Below are positions 2,859 through 13,032 of a DNA stretch of 64,000 nt, piece after piece. Source of the DNA: Erythrobacter sp. SD-21 (GTDB lineage: Bacteria; Pseudomonadota; Alphaproteobacteria; Sphingomonadales; Sphingomonadaceae); contig NZ_ABCG01000008.1 in the NCBI RefSeq assembly GCF_000181515.1, forward strand, positions 62,001-126,000. The letters run 5' to 3'. The notes below the pieces were generated by a model. It saw only the letters and a list, made by a program, of their open reading frames with translations, searched no databases and was not told the DNA's origin. The position numbers and the translations under genes were made by a program. Every line of letters begins with the position of its first letter. The stretch's first letter is position 1.

Positions 2859-3434
2859 CTACAGTAGCTCGAATTTCTCGATCCGGAAATTCGGTGCTTG
2901 CATGGCACCGATGCAGTTCCAATGCCCCGCTTCCGTGAAAAGTTCGACAACCTCGTGTCCATCTAAGGGTAAATCGGTCGGGCCTGTCCAGTTAACCAGA
3001 AGGCAAACGCCATTGCCCGTCATCGATTGACGTGCTCGCGCCGAGGCGTCTCGTATTTCCTGTTCGCTTAAGAAATAGAGCACTTCTGAAAAAACGACGA
3101 GATTGAAAAGGCCGGCGGGCCATTCGTTGGGAATTTCACCCTGTCGTAATTCAATGTTCGAGATATCTCGCAACCGCTTTTGCGCAATCGAGAGCGCACA
3201 ATCCGACACATCAATACCGATGATCCGATCGCAAACCTTTGCAAGTTCCTTTGTCAACACGCCGGTCGCACAACCGATCTCCAAAGCAATGCGGAATCGG
3301 CGACAACCGAGCGCGGCGATTGTCTGCGCTCGCTTGCTTCGCTCATAGGAACTCGTCTCGAAGTCCCAAGGATCGGGGTCGGCGGCAAAAAGGGTGTCAA
3401 AACGCTCCCTTCGCGGGGTTGCGCGGTCAACCAC
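2859..3434 (-). CDS. NodS-like class I SAM-dependent methyltransferase
   Basis: The 191-residue protein carries the SAM-binding motif LEIGCATGVL at residues 51-60. The N-terminal signature DPDPWDFETSSYERSKR at about 19-35 is characteristic of the NodS family of N-methyltransferases, which in rhizobia methylate the free amine of a deacetylated chitooligosaccharide. The acidic residue after beta-2 (IIGIDVSD) is present. The GTG start overlaps the end of the deacetylase gene by 8 bases, so translation is probably coupled. A methyl donor to a freshly deacetylated amino sugar is the natural inference from the neighbour, but the acceptor is unknown. It is the last gene of the four-gene operon. Confidence 0.85.
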   Translation of the reverse strand: MVDRATPRRERFDTLFAADPDPWDFETSSYERSKRAQTIAALGCRRFRIALEIGCATGVLTKELAKVCDRIIGIDVSDCALSIAQKRLRDISNIELRQGEIPNEWPAGLFNLVVFSEVLYFLSEQEIRDASARARQSMTGNGVCLLVNWTGPTDLPLDGHEVVELFTEAGHWNCIGAMQAPNFRIEKFELL

Positions 3435-4149
3435 GGATAAATAGTTCGGGGTGAGTGGCGAAATGGGTGACTAAGGATGCAGGCATTGTGAATCCGTTCG
3501 GGTCGTCGATCACTTGTGGATCGGTCTGCGAACGGTAGGCAGCGATTGCTTTGCACTTTAGATCTACCAGACCGGGGGCATGAAAGGTTTGCAGGCCAGT
3601 TGGAATGGCACGTTTTCCGAACCGTCCCCATACTGCGAACGACCAAAACGGTACCGATAACCTTCTTGCCACCTCAAGGCCGAGCGCTGCTGCCGTTTCA
3701 TGATCACAATGGGGATCGCCTCGCCAGGTCGACCATACTACGCTCGCGCTCTGCGCCAGGGAGAACGGAAGGACCCGGAGTAGTTGGCTACGATGGTAAC
3801 GGCTTTTCCCGTCGGGCAGATGCAGACGCAGTACGTTGACCTCGCCCATAGGTGCGAGAAAACTCAATGCGCGTACGAACTCATTCGAACGAAGGTCAGC
3901 CAGTTTCTTTGGGCCGAGTTTGCTAGCATTGGGATGCGATCCTTCTCCATCGGTCAGCAATACGATCGCTATCCGGCGGTTTCTCAGCGCGGCTGCCGCC
4001 AATGCCAGTCCGCATCCGAACGTTTCGTCGTCCGGATGGGGCGCGATGATCAGGACCGTTCCATCGGGGGCAAGGGTGTCGATCTCGACTCTGTTCGCCG
4101 TTTCTGCAGCGGTAAGGAGGGAGCCGACGGGGTATTGTGGAACGCTCAT
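3427..4149 (-). CDS. PIG-L (LmbE) family N-deacetylase
   Basis: The 240-residue protein has the zinc-binding motif IIAPHPDDETFGCG at residues 34-46 (His-x-Asp-Asp) and a second His cluster DPHCDHETAA near residue 140, which completes the usual PIG-L metal site. The family hydrolyses N-acetyl groups from GlcNAc-containing small molecules, as MshB and BshB do in thiol biosynthesis and PIG-L does in GPI anchors. Its ATG overlaps the stop of the acyl-CoA dehydrogenase (ATGA) and its own stop overlaps the methyltransferase start, so all three are translated together. The likely substrate is the product of the GT2 gene of the same operon (inference). Confidence 0.88.
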   Translation of the reverse strand: MSVPQYPVGSLLTAAETANRVEIDTLAPDGTVLIIAPHPDDETFGCGLALAAAALRNRRIAIVLLTDGEGSHPNASKLGPKKLADLRSNEFVRALSFLAPMGEVNVLRLHLPDGKSRYHRSQLLRVLPFSLAQSASVVWSTWRGDPHCDHETAAALGLEVARRLSVPFWSFAVWGRFGKRAIPTGLQTFHAPGLVDLKCKAIAAYRSQTDPQVIDDPNGFTMPASLVTHFATHPELFIRG

Positions 4150-5252
4150 ATCATCTCGACCAATTTACCAGAGAGGAAAAGAGCGCGGCCGGCTTTTTCT
4201 CGTTTGGCATCTGGTGCAGCTTGGCAGAGAAAGAGGGACAGATCGCGCTTCATCCTTTCGAAAGGTTCGCCTTCTTGGTGCGCAGCCATTCCAACAGATC
4301 GGTCAACAGTTTCCATTGTCTCGCGGCAGGTGGCCTCGGTCACTTCGCGAGCGAGCAAGGCCAAGGTGGCCTTGTCCGGCCCGGCATCGGAACCTTCGAT
4401 TTCACGCGCGCATCGCACCAGCCACAGCCGGCATGTTTCCAGAGCCGTGGCGCAGGCAACCACGCGCCGTCTCTGGTCAAGATCGTCGGTTCGTCCACGA
4501 GCAGTCAGGTGCGCCAGCAGTTTCAGGTAAAGTGCTTCGGCTCCGCCGAGGTGCGCGGCGCAATAGCGCCAGATACCGCCTTCGAAATGCGGTTCGCGAA
4601 GATAATCGCCCTTTTGTCCGATATGGCTGTCGGCAGAAAGAACGAGGCCGCGGAAATCGTAACGGCCCGACCGGGTGGCGCGCATTCCGGCCATGGTCCA
4701 GCCCGTCGCATCGGACCGCTTGGTAGAGCTGGTGGGCGCGAGAAGCATGTAGGGGCCGCCATCACCGTCCGACACGATTACGATCGCCCGATCGACCAGC
4801 CCGAGCCCGGATGCGAAGCGCTTCGCCCCGGACAGGCGAATTTCCTCGCCTACGCAAACCATCGTCAGGGGATTGCCGGGGTCGTCCGCGCCCCATACAC
4901 CGAACAGAGCCCCGCGGCGAATTTCCCCGAACGTCGCAGCGCGCTGCCTTTCGTCGCCATAAAGCGCGATCAGTTTCACCGCGTTCATATGGCCTTCGAA
5001 CAGCCGTACGACCGACAGGTTCGCGCGCCCTAGGAATCGCAGAGCGTCGAGAGCAGCGAGACTGCCGCTCGGTTCGGTCCCCCAACCTCGCCCGCCATCG
5101 GCAGTGGGAAGACAGGCGGACAGCCAGCCTTCCTTTCGCAAGGTTTCGATATCGGGTGCCAGATCGCCCTCCGGGCTGTCGACGCGCGAGGCTCGTTCGG
5201 CGATCGGAATGAGTAGCTCGCCAAAATTAGATGTCTCGAGCAAGTCAGTCAT
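4146..5252 (-). CDS. Acyl-CoA dehydrogenase-like flavoprotein
   Basis: The product has 368 residues starting at the ATG at 5252, which overlaps the GT2 stop by 8 bases (ATGACTGA). A longer open frame upstream is rejected because it would run through the GT2 gene. The sequence follows the acyl-CoA dehydrogenase plan: N-terminal helices, a middle domain with GVWGADDPGNPLTMV and GAKRFASGLG, and a C-terminal helical domain. It is divergent: I cannot point with confidence to the catalytic Glu of the fatty-acid beta-oxidation enzymes. In this operon it more likely modifies or oxidises an acyl or amino-sugar intermediate than acts in fatty-acid degradation (inference). Confidence 0.8.
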   Translation of the reverse strand: MTDLLETSNFGELLIPIAERASRVDSPEGDLAPDIETLRKEGWLSACLPTADGGRGWGTEPSGSLAALDALRFLGRANLSVVRLFEGHMNAVKLIALYGDERQRAATFGEIRRGALFGVWGADDPGNPLTMVCVGEEIRLSGAKRFASGLGLVDRAIVIVSDGDGGPYMLLAPTSSTKRSDATGWTMAGMRATRSGRYDFRGLVLSADSHIGQKGDYLREPHFEGGIWRYCAAHLGGAEALYLKLLAHLTARGRTDDLDQRRRVVACATALETCRLWLVRCAREIEGSDAGPDKATLALLAREVTEATCRETMETVDRSVGMAAHQEGEPFERMKRDLSLFLCQAAPDAKREKAGRALFLSGKLVEMI

Positions 5253-6300
5253 GCGCGAAAGCCAATTCGCGTTCGAAGCTGTGGGCTTTTTCGAGCTCGA
5301 TAAGGACTCTCGAATAGGGAAGGGGCGCGGGAGCGCTCGCTGCGCGTAGGCTCGCCAAGATTTCGCGGTAATCTCGATGCGGAAACCGGTTCGCCGCGAA
5401 AGCCCATTCGCGAAGTAGCGCATACGGGATCAGGGCCGGGTCGCATAACGGATCGTCCTCGGCCGCACGCGATTTCAGACAGGCGCCACAACCTCCTTGC
5501 GCTCGACCCAGAAGCCGTGCGGATGTTCGTGTTTCGCAATCGTTCATCATTGCCACTTTCAGTCCTGCCGCGAGTACCGCTTCGCACATAGCGGAATCTT
5601 CTCCGATTGGGGGCGTCGGTAATCCGCCGATCCTGCAGTAAGCATCGGATCGGATGGCGAGGCTTGCCCCCGATGCGCGATAGGCGAAGCAATCCGCCGA
5701 CTTACCGGTCCACGTCCGCCAAAGCTGGTTGCTGGCTTCGAAATAGGCCCGTTCTGCTTCCCCCACTGCAGCGACATGCGTTGGCAAGAGCGCGAGTTCC
5801 TGCGCATCAAGGAGAACATCCTCGCATATGAGATCGTATCCTGACGCGATGTGGAACCAGCGCGATTCGATCCAATTCGGCCCGACATAGCTGTCGGCGT
5901 CGGTAGTCAACAGCACTCCATCCGGCGCGTACCGCCACGCAATGTCGAGAGCCAAGCGCCTGGCGTGCGGCGCATCACGAATTTCGGGAGCGAAGGAGAT
6001 TTCGACGATGGCGAACGCCACCAATGCTTTTTGTAACCTCCGACGGATGATCGCAGCCGAAGCGTCCGTGGTATCGTTGACGACGAAAACCAATCCACCA
6101 CGCATGGGGGAAGATACCATTGCGGTTAGCAAGGCATCCAACGCGCGCGGCAGCAACGCCGCCTCATCTTTCACTGGAACCGCGACGACATAGTCGAGCG
6201 GGCCTTCGAAACCTTCGCTGCACCGCAAAGCGGAAGTCCGACCGGCGAATATCGGACCGGCCAGCACTTCCGCGATGTGCGCGGCGAGAGAACCGCTCAT
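5245..6300 (-). CDS. Glycosyltransferase family 2
   Basis: The 351-residue protein has a GT-A fold. The beta-1 segment DYVVAVPVKDEAALLPRALD lies at about residues 37-56, and the DXD-type motif DADSYVGPNW follows near 130. A late ED pair in PPIGEDSAMCEA resembles the catalytic base region. No transmembrane helices are obvious, so it is probably cytosolic. It is the first gene of the overlapping set GT2 - acyl-CoA dehydrogenase - PIG-L - NodS-like methyltransferase, with 28 bases between it and the DUF892 gene upstream. The upstream segment GGGATGGAACTGAAATG provides a modest ribosome-binding site. Confidence 0.86.
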   Translation of the reverse strand: MSGSLAAHIAEVLAGPIFAGRTSALRCSEGFEGPLDYVVAVPVKDEAALLPRALDALLTAMVSSPMRGGLVFVVNDTTDASAAIIRRRLQKALVAFAIVEISFAPEIRDAPHARRLALDIAWRYAPDGVLLTTDADSYVGPNWIESRWFHIASGYDLICEDVLLDAQELALLPTHVAAVGEAERAYFEASNQLWRTWTGKSADCFAYRASGASLAIRSDAYCRIGGLPTPPIGEDSAMCEAVLAAGLKVAMMNDCETRTSARLLGRAQGGCGACLKSRAAEDDPLCDPALIPYALLREWAFAANRFPHRDYREILASLRAASAPAPLPYSRVLIELEKAHSFERELAFAHD

Positions 6301-6328: not shown

Positions 6329-6829
6329 TTAGCCTTTTTTCGCTTCGAGGTTGATGCTGCGCTCCGCTAGATCGGTCATGTTCTCGTCCGCATCGTAGAT
6401 TTCGGACGTGATCGTATCGAGCTTGGTAGCGTGGTCCTTATTGCCGAGCGCTTCGGCGAACGCCTTCGCCGTTCCGAAGCCTGCAATGCCGTAGTGACAC
6501 ATGCGCTGATATTGCGCGACGATCAGCACATCGCGAACGTCCGCGTCTTCGATATCGGCTTCCAGGGCATGCTTGCGGGCTTCTTTGACCAGACCCTCCA
6601 TGCCCTTGCAGTGCTCCTTTTCGCTTTCACCGCACTCTTTGAGAAGGGACTTGAGCGTCTTCGTATGCTTCTCGATCCCATCCGCTGCCCTACTTAAACG
6701 GTCAGTCAGACTTCGATCCTGAGCTGCATCAGCCAGATCGCGAACGACTTTCGTCATCTGATCGTTGGCCGACCACAGATCGGCGAGTTCTTCGGTATAA
6801 CAGTCGGAAAGATTGGCAGGTGCTGACAT
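6329..6829 (-). CDS. DUF892 (YciE/YciF-like) ferritin-like protein
   Basis: The 166-residue alpha-helical protein begins MSAPANLSDCYTEELADLW, the typical opening of the YciF/DUF892 family, which folds as a ferritin-like four-helix bundle and is induced by stress in enterobacteria. Repeated Glu and His positions (EKHTKTL, EKEHCKGMEG, QYQRMCHYG) are consistent with a possible di-metal site. The start at 6829 was chosen over an upstream in-frame ATG because GGAG sits 7 bases before it. A GGAAC-N17-GTAT promoter candidate lies 50-80 bases upstream. Genes of this family are frequent members of alphaproteobacterial general stress regulons. Confidence 0.85.
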   Translation of the reverse strand: MSAPANLSDCYTEELADLWSANDQMTKVVRDLADAAQDRSLTDRLSRAADGIEKHTKTLKSLLKECGESEKEHCKGMEGLVKEARKHALEADIEDADVRDVLIVAQYQRMCHYGIAGFGTAKAFAEALGNKDHATKLDTITSEIYDADENMTDLAERSINLEAKKG

Positions 6830-6880
6830 CAGAAACTCCATTTCGAGAGGGGCAGATCGTTTCGTCGGGTGACAGTAGAG

Positions 6881-6906
6881 ATACCGATCCAATCTCTCCT
6901 CGTTCC
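6881..6906 (-). promoter_or_regulatory. Candidate EcfG-type (general stress) promoter of the DUF892 gene
   Basis: On the minus strand GGAAC (6906-6902) is followed after exactly 17 bases by GTAT (6884-6881). The alphaproteobacterial EcfG consensus is GGAAC-N16/17-CGTT, so the -35 is perfect and the -10 is imperfect. A start of transcription near 6875 would leave a leader of about 45 bases. Confidence 0.4.
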
Positions 6907-6968: not shown

Positions 6969-8219
6969 CTAATCTTTCGCCGTCAGATCCACCAATGCGG
7001 TGACGGGAAATTCGCTTTCAACGCGTTTCTCGATCCGGTCCGCGACGGCGGACACTTCTTGCTTGTCGAGGGAGGCCTGCACCTGAACCGAGACCCAGAC
7101 CGGATTATCTCCCTGCTCGCGCGAGCGGGTGAAGTGAGAATTGACCGTCACGAGCCGGATTTCCGGAGACCGGTCGAGCTCGTTCACCACCAGAGCCGAC
7201 ACCCGCTGCGAAATCGAGGATTGCTGGAATTGCGGGACATTCGAAAACTGCAGAACCAGCAGCACTGCTAGCGCCACCATGCTGCTCGCAACCGAGGCGA
7301 TCGAAATCCACCCCTTGCCCCGTGGATAGCGCGCGCCTTTCGTTCGCATGCCGTAGATCCGAAAAACCGCACAACCCGCCAGATTTATTCCAACGATCTG
7401 GATACCGAGCGCCCACAGGCTGGACACGACAATGTCCATCTGACCGATCGCAAGTCCCATGCCGACAAGTCCGGCGGGCGGTGCCAGTGCGGCCGCTACC
7501 AACATGCCGGTGGCAGCCCCACTCACCAGACTGCTGCGTTCTGACTGTACCAGATTGAGAGCGCCCGCCACGCCTGCTGCTAGGGGAAGCAGCAGGGATA
7601 CGGTCGACCGCATACTGGTTTCGATCATGAGTTCTGTCGCGATTTGCTGATTGAATGCCATACTGAGCAGGAAGGCAGTCGTAATGCTGGCCGCGAGCGC
7701 TGCGACATAGCGCAGGAGCGAGCGTCCCAAGAGGTTCGCGTCTCCGCGCGCGGTCGCGATCGCGAGCGTCATCGCCGGCCCCGCGAAGGGGGCGATCAGC
7801 ATCGCGGCAACGAGAAGGAAAACGCTTTCGGTGAACAGCCCGATCCAGACGATCACGCCGCCGACGACCGCGTATGCGAGGAAGCCCGGCCACGATCCAA
7901 TGCTCTGCAAGGCGCCGAGAAAGACTTCGAGCGGGCTGCGTGGCTGGATATCCAACATCTGGCTTTCGGGTTCCGAAGTTGGGGGACGCAGCGAAATTAT
8001 GCCTTGAGGGGCGAATAGCGCGCGCAGATCCTGATTGTCCTCGACCTCGGCAAGAAAGTCTTCGATCCGCCCGTTCGGAGCTTCCAAGATCAGCACCCGC
8101 CGCACCTCTTCTTGCTCGCGAGCCTCGAATTGGGCGAACAGGGTCAGTCCATGCGTTTGGGCAGCTGCGACCGTGGCTGCAGCTTCATCAGACGAGACGG
8201 TTAAAGCAAGCTGTCGCAT
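6969..8219 (-). CDS. DUF389 integral membrane protein
   Basis: The 416-residue protein has an N-terminal cytosolic domain (about 1-95) followed by several hydrophobic segments, including PGFLAYAVVGGVIVWIGLF, VFLLVAAMLIAPFAGPAMTL and a glycine/alanine-rich pair near 220-260. The MLIAPFAGPAMTLAIATARG segment is the diagnostic conserved core of the DUF389 (TIGR00341-like) family, whose biochemical role is unknown. A C-terminal soluble domain follows residue ~310. The ATG directly abuts the stop of the upstream SDR gene, so it belongs to the katE-led operon. A role in envelope or osmotic stress would fit the neighbours but is not shown. Confidence 0.85.
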   Translation of the reverse strand: MRQLALTVSSDEAAATVAAAQTHGLTLFAQFEAREQEEVRRVLILEAPNGRIEDFLAEVEDNQDLRALFAPQGIISLRPPTSEPESQMLDIQPRSPLEVFLGALQSIGSWPGFLAYAVVGGVIVWIGLFTESVFLLVAAMLIAPFAGPAMTLAIATARGDANLLGRSLLRYVAALAASITTAFLLSMAFNQQIATELMIETSMRSTVSLLLPLAAGVAGALNLVQSERSSLVSGAATGMLVAAALAPPAGLVGMGLAIGQMDIVVSSLWALGIQIVGINLAGCAVFRIYGMRTKGARYPRGKGWISIASVASSMVALAVLLVLQFSNVPQFQQSSISQRVSALVVNELDRSPEIRLVTVNSHFTRSREQGDNPVWVSVQVQASLDKQEVSAVADRIEKRVESEFPVTALVDLTAKD

Positions 8220-9014
8220 TCAGGGTTTGGCCGCCATCCGATGCAACTGGGCCAGAAGCTCGTCAGGCAGAACACCAGCAAAAGCATGCTGCACCTTGTT
8301 TAGCAACCCGCTCACTTCTTGCGTTTCGCCCTTCAACAGGGCGTCGTAACCATCCTTCGCCACTTTCGCCGGATCGGCCTTCGCGTCGGATCGGCCAACG
8401 TAGGTCTCTTGCATGTCCGCACGTTCGAAGAACTGTGTGTCGGTGAGCCCGGGGAGCAGGCAGGAGACGACTACGTTGCTGTCATTCAACTCATTGCTAA
8501 GTCCGACGCAGAAATCGTCAACGAAGGCTTTGGTCGAATTGTAGACGAGATTGAACGGTCCGGGGATGTCGTCCACAATGGAGCCGGTGACCAGAATACG
8601 GCCAGAATTGGCAGCGCGCATTTTTCCGCCAATCTTGTGGATCAGCGAGACGGTGCCGGTGATGTTGGTATCGATCGTACGCTTGATCGCCATCCAATCC
8701 TGGTTGAAAAACGCGTCGCCTTCGCCTTGGCCTGCATTGGCCATCAGGACATCGACCTGACGGCCAGCGATCTTGTCGATAACCTCGTCGATCCCAGTTT
8801 GCGTCGCGAGATCGCTTTCGAGAGTCTCGATATTCCCCGTCCCGGAGGAAATGTCGCGCAAGGCGGAAGCGCCTTCGTCCAGCCCTTGATCAGCGACGAG
8901 CAGCAGATCGCAATCGTCCCGCGCGGCCAGTATCGCGAGCTCGAAACCAATACCACTGGATGCGCCGGTAATCACGCAAAAGCCCGATAGCTTATCGATG
9001 GGGTTCTTGCTCAT
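8220..9014 (-). CDS. Short-chain dehydrogenase/reductase
   Basis: The 264-residue Rossmann protein has the cofactor motif VITGASSGIGFELA near the N terminus, NAG in MANAGQGEGD, and the catalytic YNSTK (Tyr-x3-Lys) preceded by a Ser in LVTGSIVDD. This is the classical SDR layout; the substrate cannot be predicted. The start at 9014 forms an ATGA overlap with the stop of the alcohol dehydrogenase, and the stop is adjacent to the DUF389 start. The C-terminal ~50 residues (KVAKDGYDALLKGE onward) match SDRs often found beside stress catalases. Confidence 0.88.
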   Translation of the reverse strand: MSKNPIDKLSGFCVITGASSGIGFELAILAARDDCDLLLVADQGLDEGASALRDISSGTGNIETLESDLATQTGIDEVIDKIAGRQVDVLMANAGQGEGDAFFNQDWMAIKRTIDTNITGTVSLIHKIGGKMRAANSGRILVTGSIVDDIPGPFNLVYNSTKAFVDDFCVGLSNELNDSNVVVSCLLPGLTDTQFFERADMQETYVGRSDAKADPAKVAKDGYDALLKGETQEVSGLLNKVQHAFAGVLPDELLAQLHRMAAKP

Positions 9015-10204
9015 GCCGTCTGCCCCTGCTCCATGCCGGGCTTGAGGATGACCTTCGTCCAACTGTCCTGCTTCTCACGGAAGCATTTGTAGCCGCGCGC
9101 TGCATCCTCCAGCGGCAAGCGATGGGAAATCAGGAAGGTCGTATCGAGCGTACCGTCCTCGATCTTTTCAAGCAGATCCTTGGTGTAGCGCTGGACATGC
9201 GTCTGTCCGCTCCGAACCTGCAGGCCTTTCTCCATCAGCGCGCCAAGCGGGAATTTATCGGTCATTCCCCCATAGACACCGGGGATCGACACTCGCCCAC
9301 CAGGCCGCACCGCCAAGATCGCCTGCTTCAGGGCACTCGCCCGGTCGGCTCCGATGCCGATCTTCTGCTTGGCAATGTCAATCATGTTGTCGATTGCGAA
9401 ACCGTGCGATTCCATGCCGACGGCATCGATGACCGCGTCGCAGCCGATCCCACCCGACATCTCCATCAGGGCGTCACGCACGTCCGTCTTGCGGAAATCG
9501 ATGACTTCCGCTCCCAGCTTCTTCGCCAGTTCGAGTCGGTGGGGGTAGTGATCGATCGCGATCACCTTGCTCGCGCCCATTACGATCGCAGATTGGATCG
9601 CGAAAAGTCCAACCGGCCCACAACCCCAGACAGCCACTGTATCGTCGGGCTGGATTTCGGCGTTTTCCGCACCCATCCACCCGGTCGGAAGGATGTCGGA
9701 AAGGAACAGGACCTTCTCGTCCTCCAGATGATCGGGAATCACAATCGGCCCGACATCGGAGAAGGGCACGCGGACATATTCCGCCTGCCCGCCCGAATAG
9801 CCGCCTGTCAGGTGCGAATAGCCGAACAGCGCCGACATCGGATGGCCGTACAGCGTGGCGGACATATCTTGCTTTTCCACCGGGTTCGAATTTTCGCAGG
9901 CGGAATACTGCTTGATCTGGCAGTGGAAACAACCGCCGCAGCTGATCGTGAACGGTACGACGACGCGCTGCCCCTTTTTCAACGTACTTTCGGCCCCTGT
10001 TTCGACGACCTCGCCCATGAATTCATGGCCGAGAACATCGCCTGGCACCACGCCGGGGATCACTCCATCGTAGAGATGCAAGTCGCTGCCGCAGATCGCG
10101 GTAGAGGTTATCTTGAGGATCGCGTCGCGCGGGTTGATGATTTCGGGATCGTCGACAGTATCGACGCGAACATCGTGGGTTCCGTGCCAGGTAAGCGCTC
10201 TCAT
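9011..10204 (-). CDS. Zinc-dependent alcohol dehydrogenase (formaldehyde-dehydrogenase-like MDR)
   Basis: The 397-residue medium-chain dehydrogenase has a catalytic zinc site in ICGSDLHLYDG and GDVLGHEFMGEVVE (Cys, His, Glu). A structural zinc-like Cys cluster is GCFHCQIKQYSACE, with fewer spacings than the classical four-Cys lobe. The NAD-binding motif is VWGCGPVGLFAIQ near 170. The long insertion TGGYSGGQAEYVRVPF is typical of the glutathione-independent formaldehyde-dehydrogenase subgroup. The ATG overlaps the SRPBCC stop. Substrate is uncertain; detoxification of aldehydes formed under oxidative stress is a reasonable inference from the catalase operon. Confidence 0.88.
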   Translation of the reverse strand: MRALTWHGTHDVRVDTVDDPEIINPRDAILKITSTAICGSDLHLYDGVIPGVVPGDVLGHEFMGEVVETGAESTLKKGQRVVVPFTISCGGCFHCQIKQYSACENSNPVEKQDMSATLYGHPMSALFGYSHLTGGYSGGQAEYVRVPFSDVGPIVIPDHLEDEKVLFLSDILPTGWMGAENAEIQPDDTVAVWGCGPVGLFAIQSAIVMGASKVIAIDHYPHRLELAKKLGAEVIDFRKTDVRDALMEMSGGIGCDAVIDAVGMESHGFAIDNMIDIAKQKIGIGADRASALKQAILAVRPGGRVSIPGVYGGMTDKFPLGALMEKGLQVRSGQTHVQRYTKDLLEKIEDGTLDTTFLISHRLPLEDAARGYKCFREKQDSWTKVILKPGMEQGQTA

Positions 10205-10851
10205 CGTCCGGTCTCCTGCTGCTTGGCTCGGCGGGTAGCGTCTTCGGTGTGAGCCGAGGTGGCAATTTCGCCCGTTTCCATCAGCATCTTGAATCGCTTG
10301 AGGTCGTGACGCGCCTGCACTTCGGGTTCGCGCTGAAACAGTTTCGCAATCGCGCGTCCCAGTTCGCCCGCAGGGGGATTGTAGAACATCACGAGAGACA
10401 CCCGGGTACCGCGATCGCCAGGCGCATCGGTGAAAGTGACCTCACCGTTTGTCTCGATGTCGGAGCCTTCCAACGATCGCCACGCGATAGTCTCGTTGGC
10501 GACGTCCTGAACAACTTCGGTCCGCACCTCGACCGTTTGACCGGCCGGAGCTTTGATCGTCCAGATATGCGCGTCGCCGTCTTTCCTGATCGTCTGTAGA
10601 TTCTCCATAAAGCGTGCGAGATTGCCGAAGTCCTTCCAGTACTCGTAGAGTTCGGCACGAGGCTTGCGGATGGTAACGGTCCGGCCAACAATCGGATTGT
10701 CGGTTCCAGGTCGCTTGCGCGTATAGAGCGGTGCGTTGTCGTCACCGTCCTTATGGCGCTGGGCGAGAAAGCTTGCGAAGGCTGCACCTCCGGCGGCCAG
10801 GGCAATCCCTGCTACCGCTCCGGCCAGCCCGGGTGTCTTACGATCTGCCAT
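10201..10851 (-). CDS. SRPBCC-family protein with N-terminal membrane anchor
   Basis: The 216-residue protein has a short hydrophobic stretch near the N terminus (GLAGAVAGIALAAGGAAFASFL, only partly quoted here) that could anchor it. A START-like ligand-binding fold follows, beginning VTIRKPRAELYEYWKDF. Conserved features of the cyclase/dehydrase-type SRPBCC group include LARFMENLQTI and WRSLEGSDIET. The ligand is unknown. It starts 21 bases after the catalase stop and overlaps the next gene by 4 bases, so it lies inside the operon. Confidence 0.82.
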   Translation of the reverse strand: MADRKTPGLAGAVAGIALAAGGAAFASFLAQRHKDGDDNAPLYTRKRPGTDNPIVGRTVTIRKPRAELYEYWKDFGNLARFMENLQTIRKDGDAHIWTIKAPAGQTVEVRTEVVQDVANETIAWRSLEGSDIETNGEVTFTDAPGDRGTRVSLVMFYNPPAGELGRAIAKLFQREPEVQARHDLKRFKMLMETGEIATSAHTEDATRRAKQQETGR

Positions 10852-10872: not shown

Positions 10873-12966
10873 TTAGTCCTGCTTTACGCTTTCGCGATCC
10901 CAGAAACGCAGCTTCCCGCATTTCTCGATAAAGTCGCTCGCTGCATCTTTGCCGGAGGAGACATCAACGAAACCGTCATCCATCCAGTTCCAGACGCCTG
11001 CAGTCTCGAAGAGTGGTTTGACGGCGGGGACGTAGGCGACGAACTTCGCGTGGGCGAAGGCGTCGTTGACGAAGTCGACGCTGGGTTTGTCGGTGTTGTA
11101 GCGCTTGGCCGAAGCTTCGCTCATAATTACTGCGACTGCGTCGTACACGACAGAGGGACCGCCATCGATCTTCTCGTCGGCTTCCATCATGGTGCCGTCG
11201 GACAGCTTGGCGCCAGCGACATGAGGTGCGACGATCTCGACCATTCCGCCTGCGTTCTGCGCGTTATCCTTCAGCGCCTTGACCACATCCGCATCAGCGC
11301 CCTCGGCGATATAGATGCCGAGCTTGCGTCCCTTGAAGCTGCCGGGGCCGTTCTTGACGATCGACAGCGCCGGGCTTTCGGCAAGGTCGGTGATCGGTTC
11401 GCGCGCCGCCGGGACTTTTCCGGGCAGTTCGGGAAGGCCGATCCCGTCGGCGACCTCTTGCGCGAGGGCTTCGTCGATATGGCGCAGATGGCCGATCATC
11501 CGTTTGCGAATGCTCATGCGGCCCACCTTCGACAGTTCGAAAGTCAGCGCGTTGGCCATGTGTGTCTGCTCGACAGGAGTCTGCGAGACATAGAATTGGC
11601 GTGCCTGGCTGTAGTGATCGGCAAAGGTTTCGCTGCGCACGCGCAATTTGGGACCTTCGACCGGAGCTTCGTAGCTCTGGAACCCCCTCATCGGACAAGC
11701 TCGGGGGCCGCGATCTTCCTCGGCACCGTCACCGTCGCCCCAGCTGTTGGGCTCGTAATTCACGCGGCCCTTGGGGTTGGTCATAGCCATGTGGCCATCC
11801 TGCTGAAAGTGACGCACCGGGCACTTGGGCGCATTGATCGGCAGATGCGTGAAATTGGGGCCGCCCAACCGCTTCAGTTGCGTGTCGAGATAGCTGAAAT
11901 TGCGCCCTTGCAGCAGCGGATCGTCCGAATGGTCGATACCGGGCACGAGGTTCTGCGTGCAGAAGGCGACCTGTTCGGTCTCGGCGAAGAAATTGTCGAC
12001 ATTTGCGTCAAGCGTAAGTGTGCCGATGATTTCAACCGGCACCTGCTCTTCGGGAATGATCTTTGTCGCGTCGAGCACGTCAAATTCGAACTGATCGGCG
12101 AATTCCTCGTAGAATACCTGGATGCCTAAGTCCCACTGCGGGAAGTCGCCTGCGTCGATCGCATCCCACATATCGCGGCGATGGAAGTCGGGGTCCATCC
12201 CGTTGACCTTGAGCGCCTCGTTCCAGATCACCGACTGGAGACCCAGCTTCGGTTTCCAGTGGAACTTGACGAAATGGCTCCGACCCTTCTCGTTCACCAG
12301 CCGGAAGGTGTGGACGCCGAAGCCTTCCATGAACCGGAAGGAACGAGGGATCGTGCGGTCCGACATGATCCACATGACCATGTTCATCGCCTCCGGGCTC
12401 AAGCTAATGAAATCCCAGAAATTGTCATGCGCGGTCTGCGCCTGCGGGAACCCGCGGTCGGGCGCGGGCTTGGCGGCGTGGATCAGGTCGGGGAATTTGA
12501 TTGCGTCCTGGATGAAGAAGACCGGGATGTTGTTGCCGACGAGGTCCCAGTTGCCCTCCTGGGTGTAAAACTTGGTCGCGAACCCGCGCACGTCGCGCGC
12601 TAGATCGGGAGAACCTTTGTTGCCTGCCACGGTCGAGAAGCGCGTGAAGGTAGGCACTTTGACGCCTTCTTCATTGAAGATGCGCGCGCGAGAATATTGC
12701 GGAATGGCTTTTTTCAGCTCGAAATGGCCGTGCACACCATAACCCCGGGCATGAACCACGCGTTCGGGAATACGCTCGTGATCGAAGTGGAAGATCTTTT
12801 CACGCGCAATCTGGTCTTCGAGCAGCTGCGGTCCCCGCGGACCGGCAGTAAGCCAGTTCTGATCGTCCGCAATCGGATGACCCTGCGCAGTGGTCATCAC
12901 GTCTTCATCGCTTCTCGGCCTTTGATGATTGGCTCCGCCTTTGGAGAGCTCGAATTCTTTAGGCAT
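10873..12966 (-). CDS. katE: Large-subunit catalase (HPII/KatE type, clade 2)
   Basis: The 697-residue protein decomposes hydrogen peroxide using haem. The distal His is H72 in [15 protein letters not shown]. The Asn of [11 protein letters not shown] lies near 145, and the haem-proximal Tyr region is [17 protein letters not shown]. Beyond about residue 530 it carries the extra flavodoxin/DJ-1-like C-terminal domain ([18 protein letters not shown]) that marks large catalases. The start at 12966 is preferred to an upstream in-frame codon because AAGGAAA lies just before it. It leads a five-gene overlapping operon. A GGAAC box lies 50-54 bases upstream but has only a poor -10 partner. Confidence 0.95.
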
Positions 12967-13032
12967 GACTGGTTTCCTTTCGATCCTGTCATTCGAAGCT
13001 CTGGTAGAGGTCGATGTTCCCTGATCGAACAA

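Follow-up and report, generated by a model that had tools for sequence, protein, structure and literature searches.

A mobile four-gene unit of Erythrobacter sp. SD-21, often linked to stress genes and proposed to make an N-modified amino-sugar conjugate

The Nod factor pathway combines sugar transfer, N-deacetylation and N-methylation of an amino sugar, and amino sugars are likewise the substrates of KijD3 and nitrososynthase (for KijD3 also according to the title of its structure entry), which are group D flavin monooxygenases with an acyl-CoA dehydrogenase (ACAD) fold. Enzymes reminiscent of both are encoded side by side in the stretch analysed here, 64,000 nucleotides of Erythrobacter sp. 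SD-21 (contig NZ_ABCG01000008.1, positions 62,001 to 126,000; hereafter the window). On its minus strand lie, in order, genes for a probably soluble GT2 glycosyltransferase (5245..6300, 351 amino acids, PF00535), an ACAD-fold flavoenzyme proposed to be a flavin oxygenase or oxidase (4146..5252, 368 amino acids), a PIG-L family N-deacetylase (3427..4149, 240 amino acids, PF02585) and a NodS-like S-adenosylmethionine-dependent methyltransferase (2859..3434, 191 amino acids, GTG start, PF05401). The successive overlaps are of 8, 4 and 8 bases, confirming the tight arrangement described in an initial annotation made from the sequence of the window. On balance, the four genes probably constitute one unit for the production of an N-modified amino-sugar conjugate, carried as mobile and often stress-linked cargo.

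The Pfam scores (cut-offs in brackets) are 27.1 bits (23.3) for Glycos_transf_2, 71.7 (28.2) for PIG-L and 61.8 (24) for NodS. The Acyl-CoA_dh_N score of the flavoenzyme, 23.0 bits, is barely above its cut-off of 22.9, and assignment of this enzyme also draws on profile and structure comparisons. Its open reading frame (ORF) as listed is longer (4146-5423), the start near 5252 being taken from homologues.

Conservation and co-inheritance of the four genes

Scanning genome contigs with an alignment of flavoenzyme homologues (A1, 27 rows) gave 52 loci, mainly from Alphaproteobacteria but including three from Advenella. The four families are together in 49 of these, and each of the three exceptions lies at a contig edge (L046 and L049 without the GT2, L057 without the methyltransferase). 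With start codons assigned by script, the flavoenzyme and PIG-L genes overlap in 47/52 loci, and the PIG-L and methyltransferase genes in 42 of 48 unfused pairs, the remaining three pairs being fused; these overlaps exceed chance, the 52 loci being related and not mutually independent. The fusions, which are single PIG-L-methyltransferase proteins in the three Advenella loci with further examples among database proteins, bear out the mention in the initial annotation of such proteins in other genomes; fusions of this kind also exist in Actinomycetota and Bacteroidota. In P0235 (616 residues) a NodS-like methyltransferase is joined to a GT2, the two being preceded within the protein by an apparent PIG-L end, as judged by eye and from alignment cover with no Pfam call. 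The position of the GT2 varies; 43 loci have it upstream, 31 of them at a distance of 60 bp or less, and seven have it downstream, four of which (L043, L045, L048 and L053) carry a different, low-scoring GT2 (121-149 bits). Protein distances among the four correlate (Mantel r 0.82-0.91, 40 of the 52 loci), in part because the strains share ancestry. Two loci have a gene split into two ORFs, PIG-L in L047 (10948-11640) and the flavoenzyme in L055 (9872-11051), by decay or sequencing error.

Because the 52 loci had been found through the flavoenzyme, a second search was started from PIG-L. At 1e-35 it matched seven of 385 genomes from the class, and in five of the seven, that of the window included, the flavoenzyme gene is adjacent. 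The proposal of one coupled pathway, against which rare adjacency in other genomes would have told, is thus upheld from both starting points. A sample of 398 genomes from the phylum yielded 13 with a flavoenzyme match at 1e-40, among them that of the window and every one belonging to the same class; within 1.5-kb flanks both PIG-L and the methyltransferase stand beside 10 of the 13 hits, the methyltransferase alone beside two and PIG-L alone beside one. Two genomes, G249 and G126 (L061, L062 and L079), have the flavoenzyme with the methyltransferase and no PIG-L inside these flanks, and in G126, one of the seven genomes matched from PIG-L, a PIG-L of the family is encoded ~280 kb away from the flavoenzyme-methyltransferase locus (L062). 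In the genus of the window a strong flavoenzyme match is present in 6/60 genomes, its own included; the unit is therefore accessory.

Predicted chemistry of the four enzymes

The flavoenzyme has the ACAD fold, and the catalytic base of β-oxidation is lost. The position of the catalytic glutamate of short- and medium-chain acyl-CoA dehydrogenases (SCAD/MCAD), located by a profile alignment extended without gaps to the canonical L002, is Ala345, invariant in 33 of 33 sequences; Gly226, which we take from the alignment and an isovaleryl-CoA dehydrogenase (IVD) sequence to be the position of the IVD-type glutamate, is also invariant (33/33). A β-oxidation role was accordingly rejected. The best PDB profile matches are to DszC (76.8 bits) and MsuC (61.4), with the best entry named as an ACAD at 51.0, although the DszC match spans positions 7-206 and those to ACADs cover a longer part of the profile. 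Ser148 and Trp185, equivalent to DszC Ser163 and Trp205, are invariant in all 33, DszC His92 is replaced by arginine, and DszC His391, presumably the histidine of the MsuC LHDP motif, by glutamine, the latter judged from a second match that is weak (6.8 bits). Second in the Foldseek search comes KijD3 with a dTDP-amino sugar, the assembly-line flavoprotein ColB1 is among the structural matches, and VIA-align lists ACADs at the top, not separating them from monooxygenases. The enzyme is proposed to act in oxidation, most likely a flavin-dependent oxygenation and possibly one on nitrogen. No acyl step is supported, because alanine replaces the β-oxidation glutamate and the best sequence matches are flavin monooxygenases; the NodA-like acyl chemistry suggested in the initial annotation is likewise unsupported.

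In the GT2 (model pLDDT 89.7), Asp134/Asp136, of DxD type, and Glu234/Asp235 are invariant in 26 of 26 sequences, and QxxRW is absent from all 26. The highest 19-residue hydropathy is 1.54 in the window protein, which has no clear membrane segment, and 0.85-2.03 over the 26; a fold search gave low query TM-scores, 0.38-0.51 among the 50 matches listed, and the solved glycosyltransferase relatives are remote. The metal motifs of PIG-L, PHPDDE and HxxH, are intact (His38, Asp40, Asp41, His147 and His150 in 23/23), and among its solved relatives are enzymes that deacetylate diacetylchitobiose, N-acetylglucosamine (GlcNAc)-malate, GlcNAc-inositol and also glycopeptides; scores against the BshB1 (36.6 versus 182.5) and BshB2 (24.0 versus 195.25) equivalog models are below both cut-offs. 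The methyltransferase is nearest, in the PDB, to 4isc (147.6 bits) and then NodS, 3ofj (99.2 bits), and reaches 71.8 bits against the NodS equivalog NF041650, whose cut-off is 300. Among PADLOC models it has a partial match to mad2 (51.6 bits), probably by mere possession of a methyltransferase domain. An anti-phage role thus has no clear support, this weak match being the only PADLOC result, with nothing for the other three genes at E 0.01.

In the pathway that we propose, the GT2 would transfer an N-acetyl amino sugar to an acceptor, PIG-L would then strip the N-acetyl group, and the NodS-like enzyme would methylate the amine so freed; the flavoenzyme would carry out an oxidation other than β-oxidation, likeliest an oxygenation that depends on flavin and may take place on nitrogen. 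The initial annotation had drawn a parallel with Nod factor synthesis in a non-rhizobial host. The host is indeed not rhizobial, its closest named relatives being Erythrobacter and Qipengyuania, the deacetylase is of another family than NodB (in Pfam it matches PIG-L only), and the logic of N-deacetylation and N-methylation finds support in the PIG-L and NodS-like enzymes. The parallel stands for the logic of transfer, deacetylation and methylation, but not for the type of GT2, which lacks QxxRW, for the identity of the methyltransferase, which is below the NodS cut-off, or for the acyl step; the earlier interpretation as a whole is partly supported. Membership of the Nod factor pathway itself was rejected on the failed cut-offs and the glycosyltransferase type. 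The NodA family (PF02474) has no match in the genome of the window, and equally none in 14 control genomes.

Mobility and stress-gene neighbourhood

The unit is mobile accessory cargo. An 8.36-8.37 kb block is common to L013, L014, L016, L019 and L056, labelled respectively Erythrobacter, Novosphingopyxis, Aurantiacibacter, Citromicrobium and Qipengyuania, with 93.5-97.8% identity to L013 (8053-16412), and consists of DUF892-GT2-flavoenzyme-PIG-L-methyltransferase facing alcohol dehydrogenase-SRPBCC-catalase. Outside it, none of the other four loci has sequence alignable to L013; a left flank is common to L014 and L056, and L016 agrees with L019 on both sides, so that the block occupies at least three settings. 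Repeats at its ends are unconvincing, the best inverted one being 8 bp and the best direct one 5 bp, and there are no clear target duplications. In L013 the block is surrounded by what, judged by eye, we take to be ParA/ParB-like and secretion-type genes. In the flavoenzyme tree, Fulvimarina (Aurantimonadaceae) falls among Palleronia with weak inner support, and one Sphingomonas groups, well supported, with Gluconacetobacter.

A plasmid search gave 47 records matching the flavoenzyme at 1e-20, including eight from Deinococcus, 13 from Sulfitobacter and one from Nostoc, and 12 neighbourhoods, from the best 40 of the 47, were inspected. Flavoenzyme, PIG-L and methyltransferase are together in 11 of the 12, the exception being Methylobacterium sp. 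FF17, and a glycosyltransferase is adjacent in nine; in Deinococcus radiodurans an opposite-strand helicase gene separates PIG-L from the methyltransferase. The plasmid and locus surveys thus define a core of flavoenzyme, PIG-L and methyltransferase, usually with a GT2 of variable orientation. In Phycisphaera, covered for the flavoenzyme only, one protein matches it at 51%. The D. radiodurans flavoenzyme is the C-terminal part of a 779-residue protein (L071:7546-9885), and the gene in D. gobiensis is of comparable length. The first 427 residues of the D. radiodurans fusion have no Pfam (1e-4) or PDB sequence (1e-3) match; judged by eye from their motifs, they resemble a family-1-type glycoside hydrolase.

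The surroundings of the unit are rich in stress genes compared with 60 control windows, each 20 kb long and taken at a fixed position (the genus supplied 32, the order 10 and other matching genera 18; 1,200,000 bases versus 957,690 for the 52 loci). Heme catalase is near the unit in 22/52 loci versus 0/60 controls, Mn-catalase in 5/52 versus 0/60, DUF892 in 11/52 versus 1/60, and the end-joining proteins LigD and Ku in 5/52 and 4/52, each versus 0/60; at least one of these five stress markers is found in 29/52 loci versus 1/60 controls, and none in 23/52. Zinc alcohol dehydrogenase is similarly distributed (18/52 versus 0/60). Because the controls are unmatched for Rhodobacterales, islands and plasmids, any stress-type island might show some of this excess. 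Among 20 further stretches, some of which are earlier loci and two of which surround PIG-L hits without the flavoenzyme, nine have a marker. Three of the 12 plasmid regions name one: those of Sulfitobacter indolifex and Novosphingobium resinovorum have a catalase, and that of Bradyrhizobium japonicum has Ku with LigD.

In L025, L027, L028, L029, L030 and L050 a heme-catalase match ends 21-24 bp before the GT2 gene on the same strand (the catalase gene itself ends 5, 5 and 17 bp before it in L025, L027 and L050), in L052 the catalase gene overlaps that of the GT2 by 4 bp, and in L043, L045, L048 and L053 an Mn-catalase match overlaps the last gene of the unit by 46 bp. Catalase-linked loci occupy separate places in the flavoenzyme tree (Erythrobacteraceae and kin; Gluconacetobacter/Sphingomonas/L41A/Advenella; Rhodobacterales), which makes a single founding event unlikely, although rows inside a clade are not independent. 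The peroxide-defence link and the mobility are additions to the initial annotation.

In the window the unit ends a ten-gene directon, running from 13032 to 2859 on the minus strand, in which no gap exceeds 76 bases (from listed ORF ends). Its first gene encodes a large heme catalase (10873..13032, PF00199, 583.5 bits), the sole PF00199 match in the 2.97-Mb genome, and is followed by genes for an SRPBCC (Polyketide_cyc2) protein (10201..10851, PF10604), a zinc-dependent alcohol dehydrogenase (9011..10204, PF08240/PF00107), a short-chain dehydrogenase (8220..9062, PF00106), a DUF389 protein (6969..8219, PF04087) and a DUF892 protein (6329..6892, PF05974). The DUF892 gene ends 28 bp upstream of the GT2 gene, with which it possibly shares a transcript, and a same-strand DUF892 gene is upstream of the unit in 10/52 related loci; all ten genes of the directon may form a single transcript. 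A GDE_N_bis/amylo-glucosidase-type gene (559-2745), of a kind found in 2/52 loci, and a GT4 glycosyltransferase gene cut by the window edge (both within 4-2745) converge on the operon. Control by a general-stress (EcfG) promoter was not supported: the motif GGAAC-N15..18-CGTT occurs twice in the window (1.96 expected), 34 times in the 957,690 bases of the loci versus 29 times in the 1,200,000 of the controls, and just 3/52 loci have it in the 400 bases that precede the first gene of the unit. Sigma-70 and terminator scans were no better than with shuffled sequences.

Alternative explanations and known systems

A distinct possibility is a tailoring role for the unit on some larger glycolipid or polysaccharide of the cell surface, with its stress linkage secondary. 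Three further families, of membrane-type GT2, GT2 and GT4 enzymes, are encoded nearby in 9, 8 and 9 of the 52 loci (0/60 controls each), plasmids of Sphingobium and Novosphingobium carry several added glycosyltransferase genes, and genes for envelope glycans are often carried on plasmids and islands. Yet, within the DNA examined, 43/52 loci are without the GT4 family and 43/52 without the membrane GT2 (flippases, polymerases and other glycosyltransferases were not searched), the GT2 of the unit itself looks soluble, and in Novosphingobium it is the version with many glycosyltransferases that is paired with catalase. Since 8-9 of the 52 loci carry the extra families, this proposal is compatible with the amino-sugar conjugate favoured here, as is the suggestion, unlikely in our estimate, that catalase clears H2O2 which the flavoenzyme produces as an oxidase or uncoupled oxygenase, instead of accompanying a protective product. 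The catalase genes close to the GT2 gene (six loci and L052), and the Mn-catalase matches overlapping the last gene in four loci, would be so explained, but Ku, LigD and DUF892 are also enriched without being needed for H2O2 removal alone, and 25/52 loci have neither kind of catalase within the DNA examined.

Somewhat less probable again, and near to the view in the initial annotation, is a true dehydrogenase with an acyl thioester or the acyl group of the sugar as substrate, such that the product would be an unsaturated N-acyl, N-methyl amino-sugar glycolipid. The Pfam ACAD domain, the ACADs heading the VIA-align list, their longer profile cover relative to DszC and the match to ColB1 are all consistent with it; the invariant alanine and glycine at the two glutamate positions argue otherwise, as does the lack of any acyltransferase, acyl carrier or coenzyme A ligase noticed among the recurrent, partly annotated neighbour clusters. 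A small redox cofactor or protectant of the sugar-amine type, like mycothiol or bacillithiol, would fit the peroxide-defence link and the resemblance of PIG-L to BshB1 and MshB, but is improbable given that the BshB1 score is far below its cut-off, that the four genes include no thiol-adding enzyme, and that the glycosyltransferase is a GT2, MshA and BshA being GT4 enzymes.

The reading favoured here remains an N-modified amino-sugar conjugate. Its frequent carriage with peroxide-defence genes suggests that the product would most likely aid endurance of oxidative or desiccation-type stress. More specifically, and only tentatively, the unit may be a mobile stress cassette, ranging from Alphaproteobacteria and Advenella to Deinococcus, Nostoc and, as regards the flavoenzyme only, Phycisphaera, whose undescribed N-methylated, N-oxygenated conjugate guards against oxidative or desiccation damage, the flavoenzyme being a sugar N-oxygenase. 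Judged by titles and the beginnings of abstracts, in a search with few subscription journals and excluding supplements, no paper describing the gene set was found; passages of PMC12029717 mention no deacetylase, and those of PMC7143949, PMC12197293, PMC1274311 and PMC10778927 concern other genes of the Deinococcus region, or genes not mappable. The enzyme set is widely exchanged, recurring near catalase and end-joining genes while being annotated singly under general family names. Its product would reveal an amino-sugar chemistry on plasmids of stress-hardy bacteria, including Deinococcus, and would show whether ACAD-fold enzymes oxidise amino sugars beyond antibiotic pathways.

Compared with the Nod factor pathway, with which it shares the logic of three reaction types and a methyltransferase of the Pfam NodS family, the unit has PIG-L instead of NodB, no NodA and an extra flavoenzyme. 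The MshB/BshB and diacetylchitobiose deacetylases belong, like its PIG-L, to the PIG-L family and have the same metal motifs, but work with other pathway partners, and the unit's enzyme is under the BshB1/BshB2 cut-offs. The sulfur monooxygenases DszC/TdsC and MsuC are the top PDB sequence matches of the flavoenzyme, and the serine and tryptophan of DszC are kept; by contrast, the DszC match is confined to the N-terminal part, His92 and, on the weak second match, apparently His391 are replaced, and no sulfur context was noticed. KijD3 and nitrososynthase share the ACAD fold and match the flavoenzyme in structure; they differ in that identity is ~18-20% and in that the flavoenzyme is encoded with a PIG-L deacetylase and a GT2.

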